A stretch of 64,000 nt of DNA from Actibacterium pelagium (lineage in GTDB: Bacteria > Pseudomonadota > Alphaproteobacteria > Rhodobacterales > Rhodobacteraceae). Where the stretch lies: the NCBI RefSeq assembly GCF_002285415.1, contig NZ_NSBU01000006.1, positions 186,001 to 250,000 of the forward strand. The letters run 5' to 3'. Both the position numbers and the translations under genes were made by a program. Below the pieces are notes generated by a model. It saw only the letters and a list, made by a program, of their open reading frames with translations, did no database searches and was not told the DNA's origin. Positions 789 through 10,726 of the stretch are shown here, one piece after another (the first letter of the stretch is position 1; each line of letters opens with the position of its first letter).

Positions 789-1010
789 TGCTTTTCCTTG
801 CCTTTGTCACGCACAGTCGTAGCAGACATTTTTGATATCCGTGAAGGCCTTGTGCTTTGTGTTGCGCCTTCGCGTCCAAACCTAGACTGTTTCACACCGT
901 GCGTTTCGGGCTGTCCGATGGTTGCGAGGGTGTTCGAGGCATCTGGCGATGACCTTTGACCTGTCGCAAGATGGCGCGCTATTCAAGAGGTGACGGGTTT
1001 GGGTGAAAGA
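789..1010. promoter_or_regulatory. Divergent promoter region, aminotransferase / eutB
   Basis: This non-coding stretch separates two genes transcribed away from each other and must hold both promoters. I see no convincing palindrome or near-consensus -35/-10 pair. A short open frame across it is judged a shadow. Confidence 0.4.
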
Positions 1011-2015
1011 ATGAAATCTGAAGTCACTCTCCAAGACAGTTATGCTGCGCGAATGCGCATCTCAGGTCGTGTTCGAACGACCCCGATTGTGTTGTCACCT
1101 AGCCTTAGCCACATGACCGGCGGCACCATCCAGCTGAAGATGGAGCACACCCAGCTAACCGGAAGTTTCAAATTGCGCGGGGCAAGCAACGCGCTGTTAA
1201 GCCTGACAGAGGCGCAGCGCGCGCACGGGGTGGTGGGCGTGTCCACGGGCAATCATGGCCGCAGCTTGGCTTATGCCGCGAAACAAGCGGGCGTCCGGTG
1301 TATCATCTGCATGTCCGAATTGGTGCCCCAAAACAAAGTGGACGGGATCAAGGCGCTGGGTGCCGAGGTCCGTATCGTCGGGCGTTCTCAAGACGATGCA
1401 CAGGTCGAAGTCGATCAGTTGGTGGCTAAAGGCATGGTCATGCTGCCGCCCTTCGACCACCCGCAGGTCATTGCAGGACAAAGCACGCTGGCGCTGGAAA
1501 TTTTGGAACAGTCGCCAGATGTGGACACGGTTCTGGTTCCCCTTTCGGGGGGTGGTTTGATCTCGGGCGTTGGGATGGTCATGAAAGCCGCCAATCCAGC
1601 CATCCGTGTGATCGGAATTTCGATGGAGCGTGGCGCGGCTATGTTCCAAAGCCAGCAAGCGGGCAAGACAATTACGGTGCCAGAGCTTCCAACCCTTGCC
1701 GACAGTCTTGGCGGTGGCGTGGGACTGGAGAACCGGCATACGTTTGCGATGACGCGCGCCTTTGTCGACGATATTGTCTTGGTCAGCGAGGCAGAGATCG
1801 CCGCGGCCATTCGCCATGCCTACTGGCAAGAGAACCAAATCATCGAAGGCGCTGGCAGCGTCGGAATCGCGGCGCTTTTGTCTGGGAAGATAAAGAACCC
1901 GGGCAAGTGCGTGGTGGTCGTTTCGGGGCAGAATATCGATATGGCCCTGCATCACCGCATCATTTCTGGTGAAGATGTTGATGTGAGCCGGGAGAGTATT
2001 GATGCCCGAAGTTAA
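1011..2015 (+). CDS. eutB: Hydroxyectoine utilization dehydratase EutB (threonine dehydratase family)
   Basis: This is a fold-type II PLP enzyme of 334 residues from the ATG at 1011; a GTG at 990 in the same frame would add seven residues. SFKLRGA carries the PLP lysine, STGNHGRS is the substrate loop and PLSGGGLISG is the phosphate-binding glycine loop. Alone it would be called threonine/serine dehydratase. Directly upstream of eutC, doeA and doeB it fits EutB, thought to act early in hydroxyectoine breakdown by removing the hydroxyl as water. Its 3' end overlaps the eutC start by 14 bp, indicating translational coupling. The family is certain; the substrate is inferred from context. Confidence 0.88.
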   Translation: MKSEVTLQDSYAARMRISGRVRTTPIVLSPSLSHMTGGTIQLKMEHTQLTGSFKLRGASNALLSLTEAQRAHGVVGVSTGNHGRSLAYAAKQAGVRCIICMSELVPQNKVDGIKALGAEVRIVGRSQDDAQVEVDQLVAKGMVMLPPFDHPQVIAGQSTLALEILEQSPDVDTVLVPLSGGGLISGVGMVMKAANPAIRVIGISMERGAAMFQSQQAGKTITVPELPTLADSLGGGVGLENRHTFAMTRAFVDDIVLVSEAEIAAAIRHAYWQENQIIEGAGSVGIAALLSGKIKNPGKCVVVVSGQNIDMALHHRIISGEDVDVSRESIDARS

Positions 2016-2994
2016 GATTTTAACCGAGGCCGAGCTTCGCGCGCTGGTTCCGCTGGATATCGATGCGATTGAGTGCGTTGAGCAGGGGTTTGCGGTGCTG
2101 GCCGATGGCAGCGTCGTGATGCCCCCGATCATGACCTTGATGGTTCCCGACCATAACGGCGAGGTTTGCGTGAAATCCGCCTATGTCCCCGGTATCGACA
2201 GTTTTGCAATGAAGATGAGCCCGGGGTTTTTCGACAATCCCAAATTGGGACTTCCAAGCACTTCGGGGTTGATGGTCTTGTTTGCATCCAAGACCGGCAT
2301 GCTTGAAGCGCTTCTATTGGATAATGGCTATCTCACGGATGTGCGCACTGCCGCTGCCGGCGCAGTGGCCGCGCGTCGCCTTGCAAAAGAGGATGCAAGC
2401 ACGGTCTGTGTCATCGGAGCTGGCGTTCAAGCTAAGTTGCAGTTGAAGGCGATTGCTCTAGTCCGGCCAATTTCGGCTGCTGTGATCTGGGCACGAGACA
2501 AAGTGAAAGCGGAGGCCCTTGCCTCTGAACTTCGGGAAGAAATGGGTATCGACGTCAGCGCACAAGAAGATGCCGCGATTGCGGTCTCTTCGGCGGATAT
2601 CGTTGTGACAACGACACCCTCTAACACGCCACTTGTCATGGCTGACTGGCTGCGCCCCGGACAGCTGATCATCGCTATGGGCTCTGATCAGGAACACAAA
2701 GTCGAATTGGAACCTGCCTGTTTGACCGAGGCCGACCTGTATGTGCCTGACAGCCAATCGCAATGCGCGGTCAAAGGGGAACTGCGCAGCGCGTTGGTGG
2801 CCGGTGTCGTTTCCCCTGAACGCGCGTTTCCCGAACTGGGCGACATCGTTACCGGTAAAGTCGCGGGTCGCGGATCAGACGGCGATATCATTATCGCCGA
2901 CCTCACAGGCACGGGGGTGCAAGACACCGCGATTGCCACCTTCGCGCGCCAGCGGGCAGAGACCGTTGGCGCAGGAACCACCTTTACAAGTTGA
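2002..2994 (+). CDS. eutC: Ornithine cyclodeaminase/mu-crystallin family protein EutC
   Basis: This 330-residue protein of the OCD/mu-crystallin family starts at the ATG at 2002, with GGGAGAG about 6 bp upstream; the in-frame TTG one codon earlier is less likely. The Rossmann segment CVIGAGVQAKLQLKA lies near residues 136-150, and the substrate-side helix contains DVRTAAAGAVAARRLA. It sits between eutB and doeA in one tightly packed operon. In hydroxyectoine catabolic clusters EutC is paired with EutB to convert hydroxyectoine to an ectoine-like intermediate. The exact reaction is taken from that context rather than from a visible residue. Confidence 0.88.
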   Translation: MPEVKILTEAELRALVPLDIDAIECVEQGFAVLADGSVVMPPIMTLMVPDHNGEVCVKSAYVPGIDSFAMKMSPGFFDNPKLGLPSTSGLMVLFASKTGMLEALLLDNGYLTDVRTAAAGAVAARRLAKEDASTVCVIGAGVQAKLQLKAIALVRPISAAVIWARDKVKAEALASELREEMGIDVSAQEDAAIAVSSADIVVTTTPSNTPLVMADWLRPGQLIIAMGSDQEHKVELEPACLTEADLYVPDSQSQCAVKGELRSALVAGVVSPERAFPELGDIVTGKVAGRGSDGDIIIADLTGTGVQDTAIATFARQRAETVGAGTTFTS

Positions 2995-3005
2995 AGCATA
3001 AGATC

Positions 3006-4193
3006 ATGAACGCACCCATTCTTCACTTCACGCAAAATGAGTTCGCAACTCGCCTGTCCAAGACCCGCGCTGCAATGGAAGCGGCCGGACTGGATGTGCT
3101 GATAGTCTCTGATCCATCCAATATGGCATGGTTAACTGGCTATGACGGCTGGTCTTTCTATGTGCATCAGGCCGTCGTGGTTGGCACGGATTTCGACCCT
3201 GTCTGGTTCGGTCGTGGTCAAGATGCTGCGGGCGCGCGGCGCACCACATGGCTGCCCGAGGGCGATATTATTGGGTACCCCGACCACTACGTTCAATCCA
3301 CAGAACGCCATCCGATGGACTATCTGGCCGCGCGCTTGATCGATCGCGGTCAAGGCGCAAAACGTATTGGCGTCGAGATGGACAACTATTGGTTCTCTGC
3401 CAAGGCCTATGCCGCCTTGACCAGCGGACTGCCAGACGCAAGCTTTTCCGATGCTACGGCCCTTGTGAACTGGCAGCGCGCCGTTAAATCCGAGACCGAG
3501 CTGGACTATATGCGCGTCGCGGGACGCTTCGTAGAGAAGATGCACAAGCGCATCTTAGAGGTTGCCGAGCCAGGTCTCCGAAAATCTTCACTTGTGGCTG
3601 AAATTTATGACGCCGGTCTGCGTTATGATGATCAAATCGGTGCTGGCGGTGACTATCCCGCGATTGTCCCGCTTCTTCCGTCAGGAGCTGACGCCGCCGC
3701 GCCGCACCTGACGTGGGACGATAAGCCCATGAAGTCGGGAGAGGGGACATTTTTCGAAATCGCAGGTGTCTACCGCAGGTATCATTGTCCGCTATCGCGA
3801 ACGGTTTTTCTTGGCCGGCCGCATAAGGAATTTCTTGAAGCCGAGAAGGCGATCCAAGAGGGTATGGAGGCAGGTCTTGAGAAAGCTCGGGCGGGAAACC
3901 CTTGTGAGGATATCGCCAAAGCCTTCTTTGCGGTCCTAGCCCGCTACGGCATCAAAAAGGACAACAGAACGGGCTATCCCATCGGGCTGTCTTATCCCCC
4001 GGACTGGGGCGAACGGACGATGAGTTTGCGGGCAGGTGACAAGACGGTGCTGGAACCTAACATGACGTTCCATTTCATGACGGGCCTTTGGATGGACGAG
4101 TGGGGCTTCGAGATTACCGAGAGCATTGTCATTCGAGACGGCGAACCTGAATTGCTAGCCAATGTCCCACGCAAACTGATGATAAAGCCATGA
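3006..4193 (+). CDS. doeA: Ectoine hydrolase DoeA (M24/creatinase-like fold)
   Basis: This 395-residue member of the M24 'pita-bread' family starts at the ATG at 3006; the TTG at 2991 that overlaps the eutC stop is a weaker choice. DoeA opens the ectoine ring to N-acetyl-2,4-diaminobutyrate. The N-terminal domain contains DPSNMAWLTGYDGWSFY, and the C-terminal domain has FEIAGVYRRYHCPLSRTVFLG. At the place where metal-dependent M24 peptidases have Asp ligands (typically D-x-G ... S-D-x-T-R-T), this protein has Glu and Cys/Pro. That agrees with creatinase-like hydrolysis without the classical metal pair. Its stop overlaps the doeB start (ATGA). Confidence 0.92.
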   Translation: MNAPILHFTQNEFATRLSKTRAAMEAAGLDVLIVSDPSNMAWLTGYDGWSFYVHQAVVVGTDFDPVWFGRGQDAAGARRTTWLPEGDIIGYPDHYVQSTERHPMDYLAARLIDRGQGAKRIGVEMDNYWFSAKAYAALTSGLPDASFSDATALVNWQRAVKSETELDYMRVAGRFVEKMHKRILEVAEPGLRKSSLVAEIYDAGLRYDDQIGAGGDYPAIVPLLPSGADAAAPHLTWDDKPMKSGEGTFFEIAGVYRRYHCPLSRTVFLGRPHKEFLEAEKAIQEGMEAGLEKARAGNPCEDIAKAFFAVLARYGIKKDNRTGYPIGLSYPPDWGERTMSLRAGDKTVLEPNMTFHFMTGLWMDEWGFEITESIVIRDGEPELLANVPRKLMIKP

Positions 4194-5182
4194 CCGCAAT
4201 CAATCCGATCTCAAGCACTGTTCCGTTCGATCAGGACGGGGAGTTTCATGGTTTTCTGTCTCTTCCGCATAGCCAAGAGGACAGCGCATGGGGGCTTATA
4301 CAGATCCCGATTTCAGTGTTTCGAAACGGAGATGGGCCAACCGCGCTGCTAACCGGGGCAAACCACGGGGACGAATACGAAGGGCCAATTGCGCTTCAAT
4401 CCCTTACCCACGACCTAAGCGCGGAAGACGTTCAGGGCAGGGTGATCATTGTACCCTACATGAACTACCCGGCCTTTCGTGCAGGTCGACGCATCTCGCC
4501 GGTAGATGGGCTGAATATGAATCGCATCTTTCCCGGAAAACCGGATGGTACGGTGACCGAGAAGATCGCAGATTACTTTCTGAACCAGCTGATCCCCTTG
4601 GCCGATATTGTTCTGGACTATCACTCGGGGGGGAAGTCCCTGGACTTTATTCCCTTTGCCGCAGCGCATCTGCTTGAAGACAAAGCCCAAGAGGCGGCAT
4701 GCATCGCCGCGATGGAGGCGTTCGGCGCGCCTTATTCGATGACCTTGAAAGAAATCGACCCGACCGGAATGTACGACACGGCGGCCGAGGATGCCGGGAA
4801 AGTATTCATCTCAACCGAGCTTGGCGGCGGCGGCTCTGCCACAGCACGCTCAGCGGGCATTGCGCGAAGGGGGGCGGAAAACATCCTTAGGCATGCGGGC
4901 ATTTTACAGGGAGAGCCCGCAAGTAATGGTTCCACGCGGATCGATACCACCGGTGGCGATTGCTTTCACTTCTCTCCATGCGACGGAATGCTTGAGATGC
5001 TGTTCGACCTCGAGGACGAAGTGGCAAAGGGCGACACCATCGCAAGAATCTGGCCCTCGGATCGATCAGGGCAGAAGCCTGCAGAAGTAGTATCCAAGGA
5101 GTCCGGAATCTTAGCTGCGCGACACTTCCCCGGGCTGATCAGGCTTGGTGATTGTTTGGCTGTTGTGGCGATCGCGGGGTGA
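4190..5182 (+). CDS. doeB: N-acetyl-2,4-diaminobutyrate deacetylase DoeB (AstE/AspA family)
   Basis: This 330-residue zinc carboxypeptidase-like protein of the succinylglutamate desuccinylase/aspartoacylase family follows doeA with a 4-bp overlap. GANHGDEYEG (near residues 56-65) supplies the first zinc His and the Glu, and LDYHSGGKSLD the second His. ELGGGGSATARS and the C-terminal beta-barrel end (LIRLGDCLAVVAIAG) are also present. DoeB removes the acetyl group left after DoeA action, giving 2,4-diaminobutyrate for the neighbouring aminotransferase. It is the last gene of the operon; a hairpin and then att-like repeat A follow. Confidence 0.92.
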   Translation: MTAINPISSTVPFDQDGEFHGFLSLPHSQEDSAWGLIQIPISVFRNGDGPTALLTGANHGDEYEGPIALQSLTHDLSAEDVQGRVIIVPYMNYPAFRAGRRISPVDGLNMNRIFPGKPDGTVTEKIADYFLNQLIPLADIVLDYHSGGKSLDFIPFAAAHLLEDKAQEAACIAAMEAFGAPYSMTLKEIDPTGMYDTAAEDAGKVFISTELGGGGSATARSAGIARRGAENILRHAGILQGEPASNGSTRIDTTGGDCFHFSPCDGMLEMLFDLEDEVAKGDTIARIWPSDRSGQKPAEVVSKESGILAARHFPGLIRLGDCLAVVAIAG

Positions 5183-5728: not shown

Positions 5729-6490
5729 TCAGCCAAGCGTCGACATCCACGCCAATGAAGCATCTGTTTCACCTTTAGGTTTGTATTCTGCACCTAAAGG
5801 GGTGTGCCAGCCCAAGGCTTCAATCTCTGAAAAAACCGTCCGATAGTCGATATCGCCGTGGTCAGGGGGGGCGCGATCAGGCACGGAGGCGAACTGGATG
5901 TGTCCGATTAGAGGCAGCAAATCCCGCAGTCGAGAGATTACGTCACCTTCGGTTCGCCCAACGTGGTAGCAGTCGAACATTAGTTTGAGGTTCGATGCAC
6001 CAACGCGATCGATGACTTCCGCCGCCTGATGTGTCGTTCGCAAAAAATAACCCGGCGCGTCATGTTCGTTCAGTGGTTCGATCAACATCGTCAACTCTTG
6101 CTTGGCACCCTGCTTGCAAGCGTATTCCAAGTTCTCAACGAAAGTGCGGCCACCGGCGATGCTTTGATTAAACCCTGCCATGACATGAATGTTGCGCGCA
6201 CCGATCTTGACGGCGTAGTCGATGGCTTCGTCGATCGCAGCGCGCGCTTCAATCTCACGGCCTGGAATGGCAGATAGGCCGTTTTCACCGGCTCGAACGT
6301 CGCCTCGACGGGTGTTTAAACCCAACATGGTCAGCCCTGTTTCCTGCAGTGCGGCCTTCACCTCTAAGGCGGGAACGTCATAGGGCCAATGGCATTCAAC
6401 GGCATCGAATCCTGCATCCTTTGCCGCGCGAATTGCGTCGGGCAAAGGACGGTCGTTCCATAGAAAACCAAGGTTGGCCGAGAACTTCAT
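5729..6490 (-). CDS. otnI: 2-oxo-tetronate isomerase OtnI (hydroxypyruvate isomerase family)
   Basis: This 253-residue TIM-barrel sugar isomerase starts at the ATG at 6490 (MKFSANLGFLW), overlapping the otnC stop by 4 bp. The sequence shows DAVECHWPYDVP, the strand MLIEPLNEHDAPGYFL with the metal-binding Glu, LMFDCYHVGRTEGD and HIQFASVPDRAPPDHGDIDY, all typical of the hydroxypyruvate isomerase/OtnI group. OtnI interconverts 2-oxo- and 3-oxo-tetronate so that OtnK can phosphorylate the product. It is the last gene of the ltnD-otnK-otnC-otnI operon. Confidence 0.9.
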   Translation of the reverse strand: MKFSANLGFLWNDRPLPDAIRAAKDAGFDAVECHWPYDVPALEVKAALQETGLTMLGLNTRRGDVRAGENGLSAIPGREIEARAAIDEAIDYAVKIGARNIHVMAGFNQSIAGGRTFVENLEYACKQGAKQELTMLIEPLNEHDAPGYFLRTTHQAAEVIDRVGASNLKLMFDCYHVGRTEGDVISRLRDLLPLIGHIQFASVPDRAPPDHGDIDYRTVFSEIEALGWHTPLGAEYKPKGETDASLAWMSTLG

Positions 6491-7137
6491 ACGTCCCACT
6501 CCACGTCGAATTTCGTCACCAAGGCCTGGATCTGGGTTTCGGTCAAAGCGCGTGGGCTCATACCCCGTGTCATCATCGCCAGACGGGCGGTGTCTTCAAG
6601 TTCCTCGATGGCATTGCAGGCCGCTTCGACATCCTTGCCGGCCACCACTGGCCCGTGATTGGCCAGCATTACCGCAGACCGTTTGCCCGCGAGACCGCGC
6701 ACCGCTTCGCCCATTGCCGGATCGCCTGGCAGGAAAAAGGGCAACAGCTTTACCTTGCCAAGCTTCATGATCGCATAGGGGGTCAGGGGCGGCAGGAAGT
6801 TGTCTGCATCCACATCAGGCATCATCGACAGCGCCACAGAATGACAAGAATGCAAGTGGACTACCGCACCTGCTGTTGACCGCGTGTCGTAAAAAGCAGC
6901 GTGCAGTGGCATTTCTTTCGTTGGTTTGTCCCCGCCAATCAAAGTGCCATGCGCGTCGAACCGGCTCAGGCGTCCGGGATCAAGCCGGCCAAAGCTGGTG
7001 CCCGTTGGCGAGACCAGCAATCCACCATCTGGCGTGCGTGCCGAGATATTGCCAGTGCTGCCGCCTGTCAGCCCCCTGTCGAACATGGACTTCGCTAGCA
7101 GGCAGATTTGCTCGCGCAGTTTGGATTCCTCGCTCAT
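6487..7137 (-). CDS. otnC: 3-oxo-tetronate 4-phosphate decarboxylase OtnC (class II aldolase family)
   Basis: This 216-residue class II aldolase/adducin-family protein shows GSTGNISARTPDGGLLVSPT near the N-terminus, the zinc-binding VHLHSCHSVALS and ANHGPVVAGKD. It is joined to otnK and otnI by 4-bp overlaps on either side. In tetronate pathways OtnC decarboxylates 3-oxo-tetronate 4-phosphate to dihydroxyacetone phosphate and CO2. The family call is secure; the substrate rests on the flanking otnK, otnI and ltnD genes. Confidence 0.92.
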   Translation of the reverse strand: MSEESKLREQICLLAKSMFDRGLTGGSTGNISARTPDGGLLVSPTGTSFGRLDPGRLSRFDAHGTLIGGDKPTKEMPLHAAFYDTRSTAGAVVHLHSCHSVALSMMPDVDADNFLPPLTPYAIMKLGKVKLLPFFLPGDPAMGEAVRGLAGKRSAVMLANHGPVVAGKDVEAACNAIEELEDTARLAMMTRGMSPRALTETQIQALVTKFDVEWDV

Positions 7138-8405
7138 GCGGCCTCCAAAATCTTTTGGGCGTCGGTAAAAAAGGTCTCAGCCCCGAAATTACCGGATTTC
7201 AGGGTCAGAGCAATCTGGTGTCCATCGGACTGGCAATAGGTCCACGGCACACCCGGTGCGATTTCAGCTCCGACATCAAGTTGTGACACGCCAAGCGCCT
7301 TGGTCACCGCACCCGAGGTTTCACCGCCGGCGACGATGACACGCCGCGCTCCTGCATCGCGGGCAGCTACTGCGCAGGCCGACAATGTGGCCTCGACGAT
7401 CTCACCAGCAGCGGCGATACCCAGCTTGGCCTGTGCGGCTTTGACTTTTTCGGGGGTTGCGGTCGCATAAATAAGGGGGGCGGCGGTCAGATCCTGCTCC
7501 GCCAACCAATCTAGCGCCTCTTGTGCGCCATTTTCAGCAAGAGCCAATGGGTCCAGTTGGAACGCAGGCGCGCCTCGACGCATGTAGTCAGCCACCTGCC
7601 TGTTGGTCATCGCTGAGCAGCTACCTGACAGCACGATCGTCTCTGGGCTTAAGCGGGGGGCTTTTGCCTTGGGAGCATCCGCAGAAAGCGTCCCATCGGC
7701 CAGATACAGAGCGGGCAATGGCATCGCCACCGCACTGCCACCGGTCATCAACGGCATGTCACGGCACGCCTCGGCGATCACTTCCAGATCAGAGTTTGCC
7801 ACCGCATCCACAACCACATGAGCAATGCCTTCGGCTTTCAGTTGCGCTAGCTTGTTGCGCAAAGCTTCAGCACCCTGCGCGACTGTCAGGCGGTCTGCCA
7901 GTCCAACCGATCGCGTCACCTGTGGCGCCAGTAAGCGCATCAGGTTGCTGTCTCGCATGGGGGTAAGCGGGTGATCCTTCATCGGGCTTTCCGCCAAAAG
8001 CTGTTGTCCTACAAACAGGTTTCCCATGAAGATTGACCGGCCATTCTCTGGAAATGCGGGGCAATAGATCGTCTGATCGGTGCCGAGATCCGCCATCAAA
8101 GCTTCGGCGACCGGGCCGATATTGCCTTCCGGGGTCGAGTCAAATGTCGAACAGTATTTCCAGAAAAACCTCTGCGCGCCGGCGGCTTTCAACCATTTGA
8201 GGGCCGCCCGAGTTTCTGCCACGGCTTCGGCGACAGGCGCGGTGCGGGATTTGAGGGCAATGACTTCAAAGGCCGACGGGTCGGAAGGTGGATCGGATGG
8301 CACTCCGATCCGAAGCGAAACCTGTACGCCGCTGCGCGCCAGCAATCCTGCCAGATCGGTTGCACCCGTAAAGTCGTCGGCAATGCAGCCCAGAACGGTT
8401 TTCAT
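7134..8405 (-). CDS. otnK: 3-oxo-tetronate kinase OtnK (DUF1537 family)
   Basis: This 423-residue four-carbon acid sugar kinase starts MKTVLGCIADDFTGATDLAG, the conserved N-terminal substrate site (ADDFTGA). The C-terminal nucleotide-binding part has VAGGETSGAVTKALGV followed by PGVPW. The length is usual for OtnK. It phosphorylates 3-oxo-tetronate, the oxidation product of threonate or erythronate. Only about 4 bp separate its start from the stop of a broken methylglyoxal-synthase-like frame that sits between it and ltnD. Confidence 0.94.
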   Translation of the reverse strand: MKTVLGCIADDFTGATDLAGLLARSGVQVSLRIGVPSDPPSDPSAFEVIALKSRTAPVAEAVAETRAALKWLKAAGAQRFFWKYCSTFDSTPEGNIGPVAEALMADLGTDQTIYCPAFPENGRSIFMGNLFVGQQLLAESPMKDHPLTPMRDSNLMRLLAPQVTRSVGLADRLTVAQGAEALRNKLAQLKAEGIAHVVVDAVANSDLEVIAEACRDMPLMTGGSAVAMPLPALYLADGTLSADAPKAKAPRLSPETIVLSGSCSAMTNRQVADYMRRGAPAFQLDPLALAENGAQEALDWLAEQDLTAAPLIYATATPEKVKAAQAKLGIAAAGEIVEATLSACAVAARDAGARRVIVAGGETSGAVTKALGVSQLDVGAEIAPGVPWTYCQSDGHQIALTLKSGNFGAETFFTDAQKILEAA

Positions 8406-8409
8406 CGGT

Positions 8410-8639
8410 TCATTCCTTCACAATCATTGCCGTCAGAACGGGGGCAGCTGACAAACTGTTCACAGCCAAAGGCTTGTCATTGAGGGTCGCCAAGAGCAGC
8501 TGGGATTTCACGTTCACATCGTGCATGGGGCATCACAGTCATCGGATCGATAAGATAGATTAAGGCGTCAGGTTTGCCTCTTGCAATCATCGCGTTCAAT
8601 TGCGCGTTACGGGCATAAAAGCGCAATTCGTGCCTCCAT
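8410..8639 (-). pseudogene. Relic of a methylglyoxal-synthase-like gene
   Basis: The gap between ltnD and otnK is not empty. On the minus strand an ATG at 8639 gives MEARIALL, a normal start for this family, then stops. In another frame it continues NAQLNAMIARGKPDALI and YLIDPMTVMPH, matching the active-site strand of methylglyoxal synthase (Asp and His in D-P-x-x-x-x-P-H). A further frame change gives MHDVNVKSQLLLATLNDKPL and AVNSLSAA, matching the family's C-terminal part, with a TGA at 8410. Against an intact protein roughly 40-60 codons after the start appear deleted. This is a read by eye; the gene is clearly non-functional. Confidence 0.7.
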
Positions 8640-8645
8640 AATTGC

Positions 8646-9548
8646 TTACTCCTCGCCGGGAAGTGTCAATCCCGCATTTCGTGCGTAAACCTTTGCCACT
8701 GCTGCATCGTCTTCCCAACCATGCCCCATGCCTGCCGCAGCCACGAACTGCTGCAAGGCGGCGGCTGTAATCGGCGCGCTGAACTGGGCAGATTTGGCGA
8801 TGTCCAGAACGATCCCAAGGTCCTTGGGCCAGATATTGACCGAACTATGTGGTGTGTAGTCTCCGGCCACGATATGCGGAGCGCGATTTTCCAACATCCA
8901 ACTTGTGCCTGCGCATTTGCTGATGACCTCGACAAATTTCTCGGGCGTAACGCCTTGCGTCATGCCAAAGGTCAGGGCTTCGGCCATCGTGGCGATGTGA
9001 ACGCCTGCCAGCAACTGGTTGACGGCTTTCATCGCGGATCCTTGCCCGGCGGTTTCACCAAGCTCGAACACCGTCTCTGCGGCAGCTTCCAGTACGGGGC
9101 GTGCGGCAGAGAAGGCGGCCGACGACCCCGAGGCCATTATAGATAGTTGACCTCTGGCGGCCTTGGCCGAACCGCCGGATATTGGCGCATCAAGATAATG
9201 AATTCCCTTTGCGTTGCATCTGGCTTCCATCTCCCGGGCGAATTCCGGAGGGACAGTGGCACAAGCGACAACAACAGCCCCCTCGCGCATGGCTGGCACG
9301 ATACCGTTGTCACCGAACAAAACCTCTTCGGTTTGAGCCGCATTCAAGACCACAATGACAGCGGCATCCAAAGACCCGGCGATAGCGGCAAGGTCTCCAC
9401 CTGCACCGCCCTCAGCCTGAAACCGCTCCATCTGAGAAGTCACGACATCAAAGCCGTGAACGTCAAAACCCGCCCGCAGGCAGGACTGAGCGATCCCGTA
9501 TCCCATGGACCCTAGACCAATAACCGCTGTTTTGAAGGTGTCAGTCAT
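8646..9548 (-). CDS. ltnD: L-threonate dehydrogenase LtnD (beta-hydroxyacid dehydrogenase)
   Basis: This 300-residue enzyme of the 3-hydroxyisobutyrate dehydrogenase family starts MTDTFKTAVIGLGSMGYGIA with the GxGxxG cofactor motif. DAPISGGSAKAARG is the substrate-binding segment and GSAMKAVNQLLAG carries the catalytic lysine. LtnD oxidises L-threonate (or related four-carbon acids) to 2-oxo-tetronate, the first step of the pathway completed by OtnI, OtnK and OtnC. It is the first gene of the operon; the divergent LacI-type gene and a palindromic operator lie just upstream. Confidence 0.9.
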   Translation of the reverse strand: MTDTFKTAVIGLGSMGYGIAQSCLRAGFDVHGFDVVTSQMERFQAEGGAGGDLAAIAGSLDAAVIVVLNAAQTEEVLFGDNGIVPAMREGAVVVACATVPPEFAREMEARCNAKGIHYLDAPISGGSAKAARGQLSIMASGSSAAFSAARPVLEAAAETVFELGETAGQGSAMKAVNQLLAGVHIATMAEALTFGMTQGVTPEKFVEVISKCAGTSWMLENRAPHIVAGDYTPHSSVNIWPKDLGIVLDIAKSAQFSAPITAAALQQFVAAAGMGHGWEDDAAVAKVYARNAGLTLPGEE

Positions 9549-9586
9549 TTCGCAGACCTCATTCGGTGTAATTCTTGACAGTTGAC

Positions 9587-9620
9587 CTTATAACCGGTAC
9601 CGATACCGGTATCGATATCA
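9587..9620 (-). promoter_or_regulatory. Palindromic operator and -10 element in the ltnD / lacI-type intergenic region
   Basis: GATACCGGTATC (9602-9613) is a perfect 12-bp palindrome, and the adjoining ACCGGTACCGAT forms a second overlapping one (CGGTACCG). On the minus strand a TATAAG -10-like hexamer lies at 9592-9587, so the palindromes cover the -35 region of the ltnD promoter. A CG-centred palindrome is typical of LacI-family operators; the neighbouring regulator is the likely binder. Confidence 0.6.
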
Positions 9621-9643
9621 GGTGTCAACCACCAGCGGTCAAC

Positions 9644-10726
9644 ATGGACCGTCAATTGCCCCAAACGCTCGGAGTTGGTAGGGCGAACACTGATGGAAGC
9701 AGTAAAAGGAGCGGGCGTCCATTGGATGAGAAGAACCGTGTAACACTGGCAGATGTTGCCGCTGCTGCGGGCGTCAGCAAGATGACCGCATCCCGCGCTC
9801 TACGCGGGGCAGGTGACGTGTCCGCGAGAAGTATCGAGAAAGTCCGGCAGACGGCGAAGGACATTGGCTATGTCGGAAATCACTTGGCCTCATCTCTCTC
9901 GGGGAAACGATCCGACCTGATTGGCGTGTTGGTTCCCAGCTTGGCAAACATCGTCTTCGCCGAGGTCCTCTCTGGGATTGCAGAAGGAATTGAGGGCAGT
10001 GGCCTGCAGCCAGTCTTCGGCGTAACCGACTACGATCTCGAAAAAGAGTACAACATCATCAGGAGTATGCTGTCTTGGAATCCGGCCGGTCTGATTGTCA
10101 CCGGGCTTGATCAGTCAGATGACTCAACACGGCTGCTGAAAAACGCAGACATCCCCGTGGTTCAGATCATGGATGTGGACGGGACGCCGGTCGATGCATG
10201 TGTTGGCCTGTCCCACTACTCGGCCGGAGAAGCGATGGCAGAGACCTTGATCGCGATGGGCCGCAGTCGCATTGGCTACATTGGCTGCGACTTGAACAAA
10301 GACACCAGAGCGCAAAAGAGACTGGAAGGGTTCAAGAGATCCCTAGCGAAAAACGGCCTTAGTCTCGTAGTCGAGAAGACAAGCGAGAACCCATCTGCGG
10401 CGAAAACCGGGCGGGACCTCACAGCGCTGGCTCTTGCAGAAGAGCCTGACTTGGACGGTATTTACTATTCCAACGACGACCTCGCCGCTGGTGGAGCATT
10501 TCATTGTATTGCCTGCGGCATAAGCGTTCCGGAAAGAGTTGCCCTCGCAGGGTTCAACGGGCTCGACCTCATCGACAGCCTTCCGGTCAAGATCATAACC
10601 TCTCGGACACCGCGAAGAGAGATAGGGAAGACCGCAGTCGAGTTCATCACCGGCGCAAACAGGACAAATGAGAAACCCGAAAGTCGCACGATTGCGTTCA
10701 CACCGTCCATTTCTGTCGAAACCTGA
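9644..10726 (+). CDS. LacI-family transcriptional regulator of the tetronate operon
   Basis: This 360-residue regulator has an N-terminal helix-turn-helix, RVTLADVAAAAGVSKMTASR, after a short tail, then a periplasmic-binding-protein-like ligand domain (IGVLVPSLANIVFAEVLSGI; YYSNDDLAAGG). I choose the ATG at 9644. An in-frame TTG at 9575 would make the operator palindrome coding and add 23 residues of no family resemblance. It is divergent from ltnD and is the obvious candidate repressor for ltnD-otnK-otnC-otnI, with a tetronate intermediate as inducer. That role is inferred from position. Confidence 0.88.
   Translation: MDRQLPQTLGVGRANTDGSSKRSGRPLDEKNRVTLADVAAAAGVSKMTASRALRGAGDVSARSIEKVRQTAKDIGYVGNHLASSLSGKRSDLIGVLVPSLANIVFAEVLSGIAEGIEGSGLQPVFGVTDYDLEKEYNIIRSMLSWNPAGLIVTGLDQSDDSTRLLKNADIPVVQIMDVDGTPVDACVGLSHYSAGEAMAETLIAMGRSRIGYIGCDLNKDTRAQKRLEGFKRSLAKNGLSLVVEKTSENPSAAKTGRDLTALALAEEPDLDGIYYSNDDLAAGGAFHCIACGISVPERVALAGFNGLDLIDSLPVKIITSRTPRREIGKTAVEFITGANRTNEKPESRTIAFTPSISVET

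Follow-up and report, generated by a model that had tools for sequence, protein, structure and literature searches.

A methylglyoxal synthase pseudogene in the tetronate operon of Actibacterium pelagium and its intact counterparts in related genomes

The tetronate operon of Actibacterium pelagium carries, between ltnD and otnK on the minus strand, a stretch (8410-8639) that sequence likeness and gene order identify as a methylglyoxal synthase (mgs) pseudogene, and in some relatives this junction holds an intact mgs. As a pseudogene the window copy is nothing unusual; what deserves interest is the intact variant of the operon to which it led. The window is the whole stretch of DNA analysed, 64,000 nucleotides of contig NZ_NSBU01000006.1 (assembly GCF_002285415.1, positions 186,001-250,000, forward strand), and coordinates count from its start. 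Taken as a whole, the reading in which an ancestral operon carried mgs, the gene later decayed, and the enzyme drew off DHAP while it was intact seems fairly probable to us. The operon and its divergent neighbour are as follows:

9575..10726, plus strand: divergent LacI-type regulator, start codon uncertain (open reading frame; family from the translation alone)
8646..9548, minus strand: ltnD, L-threonate dehydrogenase, intact (NCBIfam NF043037, 426.5 bits, cut-off 350)
7134..8405, minus strand: otnK, 3-oxo-tetronate kinase, intact (NF043035, 562 bits, cut-off 350)
6487..7137, minus strand: otnC (NF043034, 297 bits, cut-off 250)
5729..6499, minus strand: otnI-like, 2-oxo-tetronate isomerase (best match NF043033, 270 bits, cut-off 325)

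The gene order on the minus strand is ltnD, mgs remnant, otnK, otnC and the otnI-like gene. LtnD, OtnK and OtnC of the window together exceed the NCBIfam equivalog cut-offs, and the score of the OtnI-like product lies under the NF043033 cut-off in the copy of genome G274 as well. A relative of the LacI-type regulator is likewise divergent from ltnD at locus L082. Elsewhere in the window, at 990-5182 on the plus strand, four ectoine-use-like genes (threonine dehydratase-, ornithine cyclodeaminase-, M24 peptidase- and deacetylase-like) were recognised from their translations alone. L-threonate arises from ascorbate breakdown in plants. According to PMC12540250, its catabolism in bacteria terminates in DHAP, and the four-step route ltnD-otnI-otnK-otnC, with its aldolase-DUF1537 clusters, is credited to Zhang et al. 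2016, as cited in PMC12540250 and PMC10580937. All four genes of this known pathway, otnI in the form of the otnI-like gene, are likewise present here, in one run; the difference is an extra mgs between ltnD and otnK, dead in the window and intact in some relatives. The remnant comprises the following features:

8616..8639, minus strand: ATG-led MEARIALL (A of the ATG at 8639), a weak, possibly chance likeness to an MGS start
8602..8619, minus strand: ltnD 3'-end-like fragment coding YARNA, at the deletion joint (like the ltnD of G389, locus L057)
8608-8525, minus strand: remnant piece 1, NAQLNAMIARGKPDALIYLIDPMTVMPH, MGS codons about 62-88 (tblastn, NCBIfam, profile alignment)
8521..8524, exact place ambiguous, minus strand: about 4 extra bases, causing the frame change from one piece to the next (alignment to the mgs of L008; two +2 steps in the profile path)
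8410..8520, minus strand: remnant piece 2, HDVNVKSQLLLATLNDKPLAVNSLSAAPVLTAMIVKE (about 8520-8413), with the TGA stop at 8412-8410, MGS codons about 89 to the end
8414..8418, minus strand: AAGGA inside the remnant, likely the otnK ribosome-binding site, 8 bases before the otnK ATG

Three peptides that a sequence-only reading of this DNA had named were all found where it put them, in three different frames of the minus strand, and for two of them the claimed likeness to MGS was borne out. A frameshift-tolerant alignment of the remnant with an MGS profile, built from six intact MGS proteins, scored 140.8, against a mean of 25.0 and a maximum of 42.3 for 300 dinucleotide shuffles, and its path covers MGS positions 62-118 in two frames. 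When the whole genome was searched by tblastn with the MGS of an intact relative, the two remnant pieces alone matched (E about 5e-5 each), and the best NCBIfam family for the middle piece alone was NF003559 (methylglyoxal synthase; E 7e-6, 25.8 bits, with a full-length cut-off of 84). The TIGR00160 search of the window genome returned no MGS match, and PF02142 returned two matches, in frames of 530 and 1149 aa, which we take from their size to be PurH and CarB; judging from these searches, the remnant pieces are the sole mgs traces found in the window genome. The proposal that MEARIALL is the MGS start was not supported, as 35 of 1000 shuffles reach its score and this piece is therefore insecure. 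A chance resemblance, or a remnant of some other family, would be in keeping with that weakness and with the Pfam scan, in which neither piece alone gave a match, but none of the 300 shuffles reached the remnant score, NF003559 matches the middle piece, and in relatives an intact mgs occupies the corresponding junction. Refuted by synteny, this explanation has practically no probability left; similarity to MGS was present and no other family matched better. In the test for an intact frame with the TGTTG and SGPLGGD motifs, the window copy was found split over two frames with its first ~61 codons absent, and it is therefore a pseudogene, not a working member of the family.

Compared with the mgs of L008, the gene is collinear over its last part, apart from about 4 additional bases around 8521-8524. 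The lost part includes both active-site motifs, and about 150 net bases are missing. Within the retained part, 15 of the 38 columns invariant in the six intact proteins are changed (one lies at the joint and is maybe no substitution), which indicates real, lasting decay and not a sequencing error. Just before the mgs part, 8619-8602 reads TTTATGCCCGTAACGCGC, identical in 17 of 18 bases to the ltnD 3' end in G389. None of 500 shuffles reached the score of this match over 49 ltnD ends (two loci are included twice, L053/L094 and L054/L200), in a test that is post hoc, the match having first been noticed by eye; it extends to 21 of 24 bases. The window's own ltnD end fits the joint fragment less well (42 of 500 shuffles as high), and an LtnD tree testing for foreign ltnD replacement gave no starred grouping for the window. 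From these comparisons, the sequence preceding NAQL appears better explained as an ltnD 3'-end fragment than as an MGS start, and at the joint an ltnD tail seems to run into mgs. The deletion and frame change named in the sequence-only reading were upheld, while a plain internal deletion of one mgs was not, given the ltnD-tail sequence at the joint.

Near its 3' end the remnant contains AAGGAATGA, which is common to the window, L096 (intact mgs) and L054 (G067). That this 3' end has been kept is probably due to the inferred otnK ribosome-binding site, AAGGA, which is located inside it. As the window genome was the sole one of its genus compared, no close copy checks its bases, and a sequencing or assembly error in a living mgs might be invoked on that account. 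The missing bases, the ltnD-like tail at the joint and the changed invariant residues led us to set this explanation aside as very improbable, and the window genome is listed as 99.99% complete.

Intact mgs genes between ltnD and otnK, for which the sequence-only reading had suggested looking in relatives, were found. The MGS alignment search confirmed 561 stretches, of which the best 80 were taken as named-genome loci with up to 6 kb of flanking sequence (complete on both sides in 64). Tetronate genes were located within the flanks of 13 of these best 80 and of none of the other 67. In 11 of the best 80 loci mgs has a tetronate or erythronate gene as an immediate neighbour on the same strand, as it does outside them in G274, G267, G013 and G585. 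The order ltnD-mgs-otnK-otnC was found in six of the best 80 loci, which stand first among the following:

L094 (contig of G082, MAG): ltnD-mgs-otnK-otnC
L096 (Rhizobiaceae-group MAG): ltnD-mgs-otnK-otnC
L097 (Halovulum marinum): ltnD-mgs-otnK-otnC
L099 (uncultured Pseudoruegeria): ltnD-mgs-otnK-otnC
L102 (Pelagimonas varians): ltnD-mgs-otnK-otnC
L120 (MAG): ltnD-mgs-otnK-otnC
G274 (outside the best 80 loci): ltnD-mgs-otnK-otnC
L098 (Acidocella MAG): otnI-otnK-otnC-denD-mgs, with DenD, OtnK, OtnI and MGS above cut-offs
L103 (Dinoroseobacter MAG): mgs, then a broken otnK at 6381-7379, in two frames of 133 and 192 aa
L109: otnK absent between mgs and otnC
L130 (5096-7949): ltnD-mgs, then a UgpB-like glycerol 3-phosphate binding protein (376 bits, cut-off 411)
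G267: mgs-otnI
G013: mgs-otnC
G585 (other family of the same class): otnK-otnC-mgs, overlapping or one base apart

The gap between ltnD and otnK measures 376-388 bp in the first seven of these. L104, like L103, L109 and L130, has mgs beside one or more tetronate genes, ltnD being the sole one at L130; at L114 and L116 mgs is near a tetronate operon and outside it. Altogether, five arrangements of mgs in tetronate/erythronate operons were observed across at least three alphaproteobacterial families, and such repeated association with a pathway that makes DHAP speaks for a functional link. In the class sample, 17 of 385 genomes had an MGS match at E 1e-30, and a tetronate neighbour within 1.5 kb was present in G585 only. 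Among plasmids, 65 records with an MGS were found, all of them below 60% identity. A broken otnK is also present at L231 (2628-3461), in a second, mgs-free operon copy of G182.

MGS genes were observed in other surroundings as well. At L100 and L101 (6001-8850) 5-oxoprolinase genes follow MGS immediately downstream (for L100, PxpA was confirmed), and at L105, L106, L108, L111 and L118 it is directly behind a GntR-type regulator and near TctCBA-like transporter genes (from translations). Pseudoruegeria aquimaris (L095 = L081, 8160-10095) has an mgs about 80% identical to the tetronate type, which adjoins an NAD-dependent epimerase/dehydratase-type oxidoreductase, with a glyoxalase I-like gene of the SMU1112c/YaeR family nearby and tetronate genes absent within 6 kb. 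Among relatives, 26 of 57 tblastn MGS match rows lay in frames of at least 353 aa, where MGS may be the C-terminal end of a longer protein; an N-terminal part of about 230 aa precedes the MGS part at L017 (1483-2631), L210 (6159-7235) and L212 (6764-7852). For this part of L017, Pfam gave only a weak HisA-like match (E 0.002), and NCBIfam names the MGS part alone in the L210 protein.

The proteins of six intact relatives (L080, L082, L097, L098, L102 and L230) all exceed the NF003559 cut-off of 84, with 165.8-174.9 bits. With TIGR00160 they score 141.8-160.6 bits, and four of the six reach the cut-off of 146.9, missed by L080 (146.7) and L230 (141.8). The nearest solved chains to the intact relatives are methylglyoxal synthases (PDB 1b93 and 2xw6). 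We take the active-site residues to be, in L094 numbering, H10, D11, K14, TGTTG, SGPxGGD, D81, H88 and D91, and presumably H19, D20, D71, D91, H98 and D101 in E. coli, a numbering inferred from the alignment of ranges 3-118 to 12-128 of 1b93. These residues were present in all 17 intact MGS proteins read, SGPxGGD and D71 by construction, as the proteins had been found by that string; each of the 17 loci was matched. The intact relatives resemble known MgsA in their NF003559 scores and active-site residues, but are shorter at the C-terminus (about 120-130 aa against 143-145 model positions) and differ in the placement of their gene in a tetronate operon, whereas the window copy is a mere fragment.

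Same-family genomes with an OtnK match at E 1e-60 or better numbered 137 of 394. Among the 57 OtnK matches listed, at about 58% identity or more and with the window's own included, ltnD is directly upstream of otnK in 42. At these 42 junctions mgs is intact in two (G082, G274), a remnant in one (the window), a probable remnant in one (G067) and absent in 38, a count that includes the second, broken otnK of G182 (L231), which ltnD adjoins and where mgs is absent. With so few junctions carrying it, mgs is therefore dispensable. The ltnD-otnK gap of G067 (L054) probably holds a second mgs wreck, since its start piece matches MGS at the expected place (0 of 1000 shuffles) and its 3' end has the sequence shared with the remnant; over the whole gap the MGS profile match is moderate (2 of 300 shuffles as high). 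The long ltnD-otnK gaps of L058 and L176 were rejected as mgs wrecks (285 and 246 of 300 shuffles as high, respectively).

In the OtnK tree (63 rows), the window falls in a 10-row group (SH-aLRT 85) with two intact mgs, two remnants (one probable) and six rows without, and nine changes of mgs presence are needed overall in a poorly resolved topology (9 of 60 inner branches starred). Rows left out were L053 and L200 (copies of L094 and L054) and L103 (broken OtnK); L109 and L130 have no row, as OtnK is absent at the locus. The MGS tree, built on 102 rows and 125 columns and with few of its branches resolved, places nine of the 11 tetronate-linked MGS in one 13-row group (SH-aLRT 80) and the other two elsewhere. 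This pattern fits, without proving, one main mgs recruitment with repeated loss and further recruitments.

The ancestor would have had the operon order ltnD-mgs-otnK-otnC-otnI, as some relatives still do, and a deletion would have taken the first ~61 codons, the joint now showing the ltnD-tail fragment; a gain of about 4 bases and numerous substitutions would have come in addition. The substrate of MGS is DHAP (PMC3146418). On the substrate, the direction of flux and the benefit of MGS in the operon, we infer that the intact enzyme most likely drew off DHAP made by OtnC when its supply outran the capacity of triosephosphate isomerase and lower glycolysis, and that it released methylglyoxal and free phosphate. 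The role of overflow valve put forward in the sequence-only reading fits the chemistry because the OtnC product is the MGS substrate; it is plausible and, with moderate confidence, the best reading. Triosephosphate isomerase was present in all 11 genomes checked, so mgs would be an optional DHAP exit and not an obligatory one. MGSA (TIGR00160) was found in nine of the 11, in a single copy in eight of these, and in neither remnant genome; Pelagimonas varians has two matches and Halovulum marinum one copy. All 11 genomes have a glyoxalase I-like gene below the family cut-off (among 14 control genomes, 10 match and 2 pass). When translations were read by eye, no glyoxalase gene was seen beside mgs at L080 and L082.

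Other roles were weighed against the overflow role. Given its position, mgs would be co-expressed with the pathway during any use of the substrate, and with glyoxalase I-like genes, if below cut-off, in every genome checked, it might serve as a regular carbon route from DHAP through methylglyoxal to lactate and pyruvate; triosephosphate isomerase in the same 11 genomes and the 38 of 42 family-sample junctions without mgs make this unlikely. We give a similarly low chance to mgs being a passenger, in the sense of a small gene finding its way into catabolic operons with no particular tie to tetronates, as its places beside 5-oxoprolinase genes, GntR and TctCBA-like transporter genes and the ugpB-like gene of L130 would suggest, but which the five arrangements in at least three families argue against. 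Decarboxylation by OtnC should yield the same enediolate that MGS makes from DHAP. From this shared enediolate and the existence of mgs-otnC and otnC-mgs pairs, one could suppose that the MGS-like enzyme uses 3-oxo-tetronate 4-phosphate or the OtnC-released enediolate directly instead of free DHAP, which the retention of ordinary MGS active-site residues renders quite improbable. A broader conjecture, which we regard as possible though doubtful, is that mgs was recruited several times into alphaproteobacterial tetronate/erythronate operons as a dedicated exit. OtnC and MGS together would then convert 3-oxo-tetronate 4-phosphate to methylglyoxal, CO2 and free phosphate, which would recover the kinase's outlay of phosphate and relieve glycolysis, and MGS might capture the OtnC enediolate before free DHAP forms. 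The branch would have been lost in the window lineage and, probably, also in G067, and the two losses would be independent if the wrecks differ as they look.

The literature search found no paper pairing methylglyoxal synthase with 3-oxo-tetronate, DUF1537 or threonate, or mgsA with erythronate, among papers within its reach, which did not extend to the 2016 operon-defining paper. By text search, the word methylglyoxal occurs 0 times in the accessible main text of PMC12540250 and PMC10580937. In the methylglyoxal bypass known from E. coli and from Lactobacillus sakei on ribose (PMC3146418), DHAP is likewise drained to methylglyoxal on an alternative carbon source, but there mgsA is induced on ribose and, in the accessible part of that paper, is not assigned to the operon of the substrate itself. 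The wreck in the window hints at a side branch of threonate breakdown. If MGS is truly built into these operons, some alphaproteobacteria would make toxic methylglyoxal during growth on tetronates, and relatives with and without mgs in otherwise equal operons would constitute a natural experiment on the purpose of the methylglyoxal bypass.
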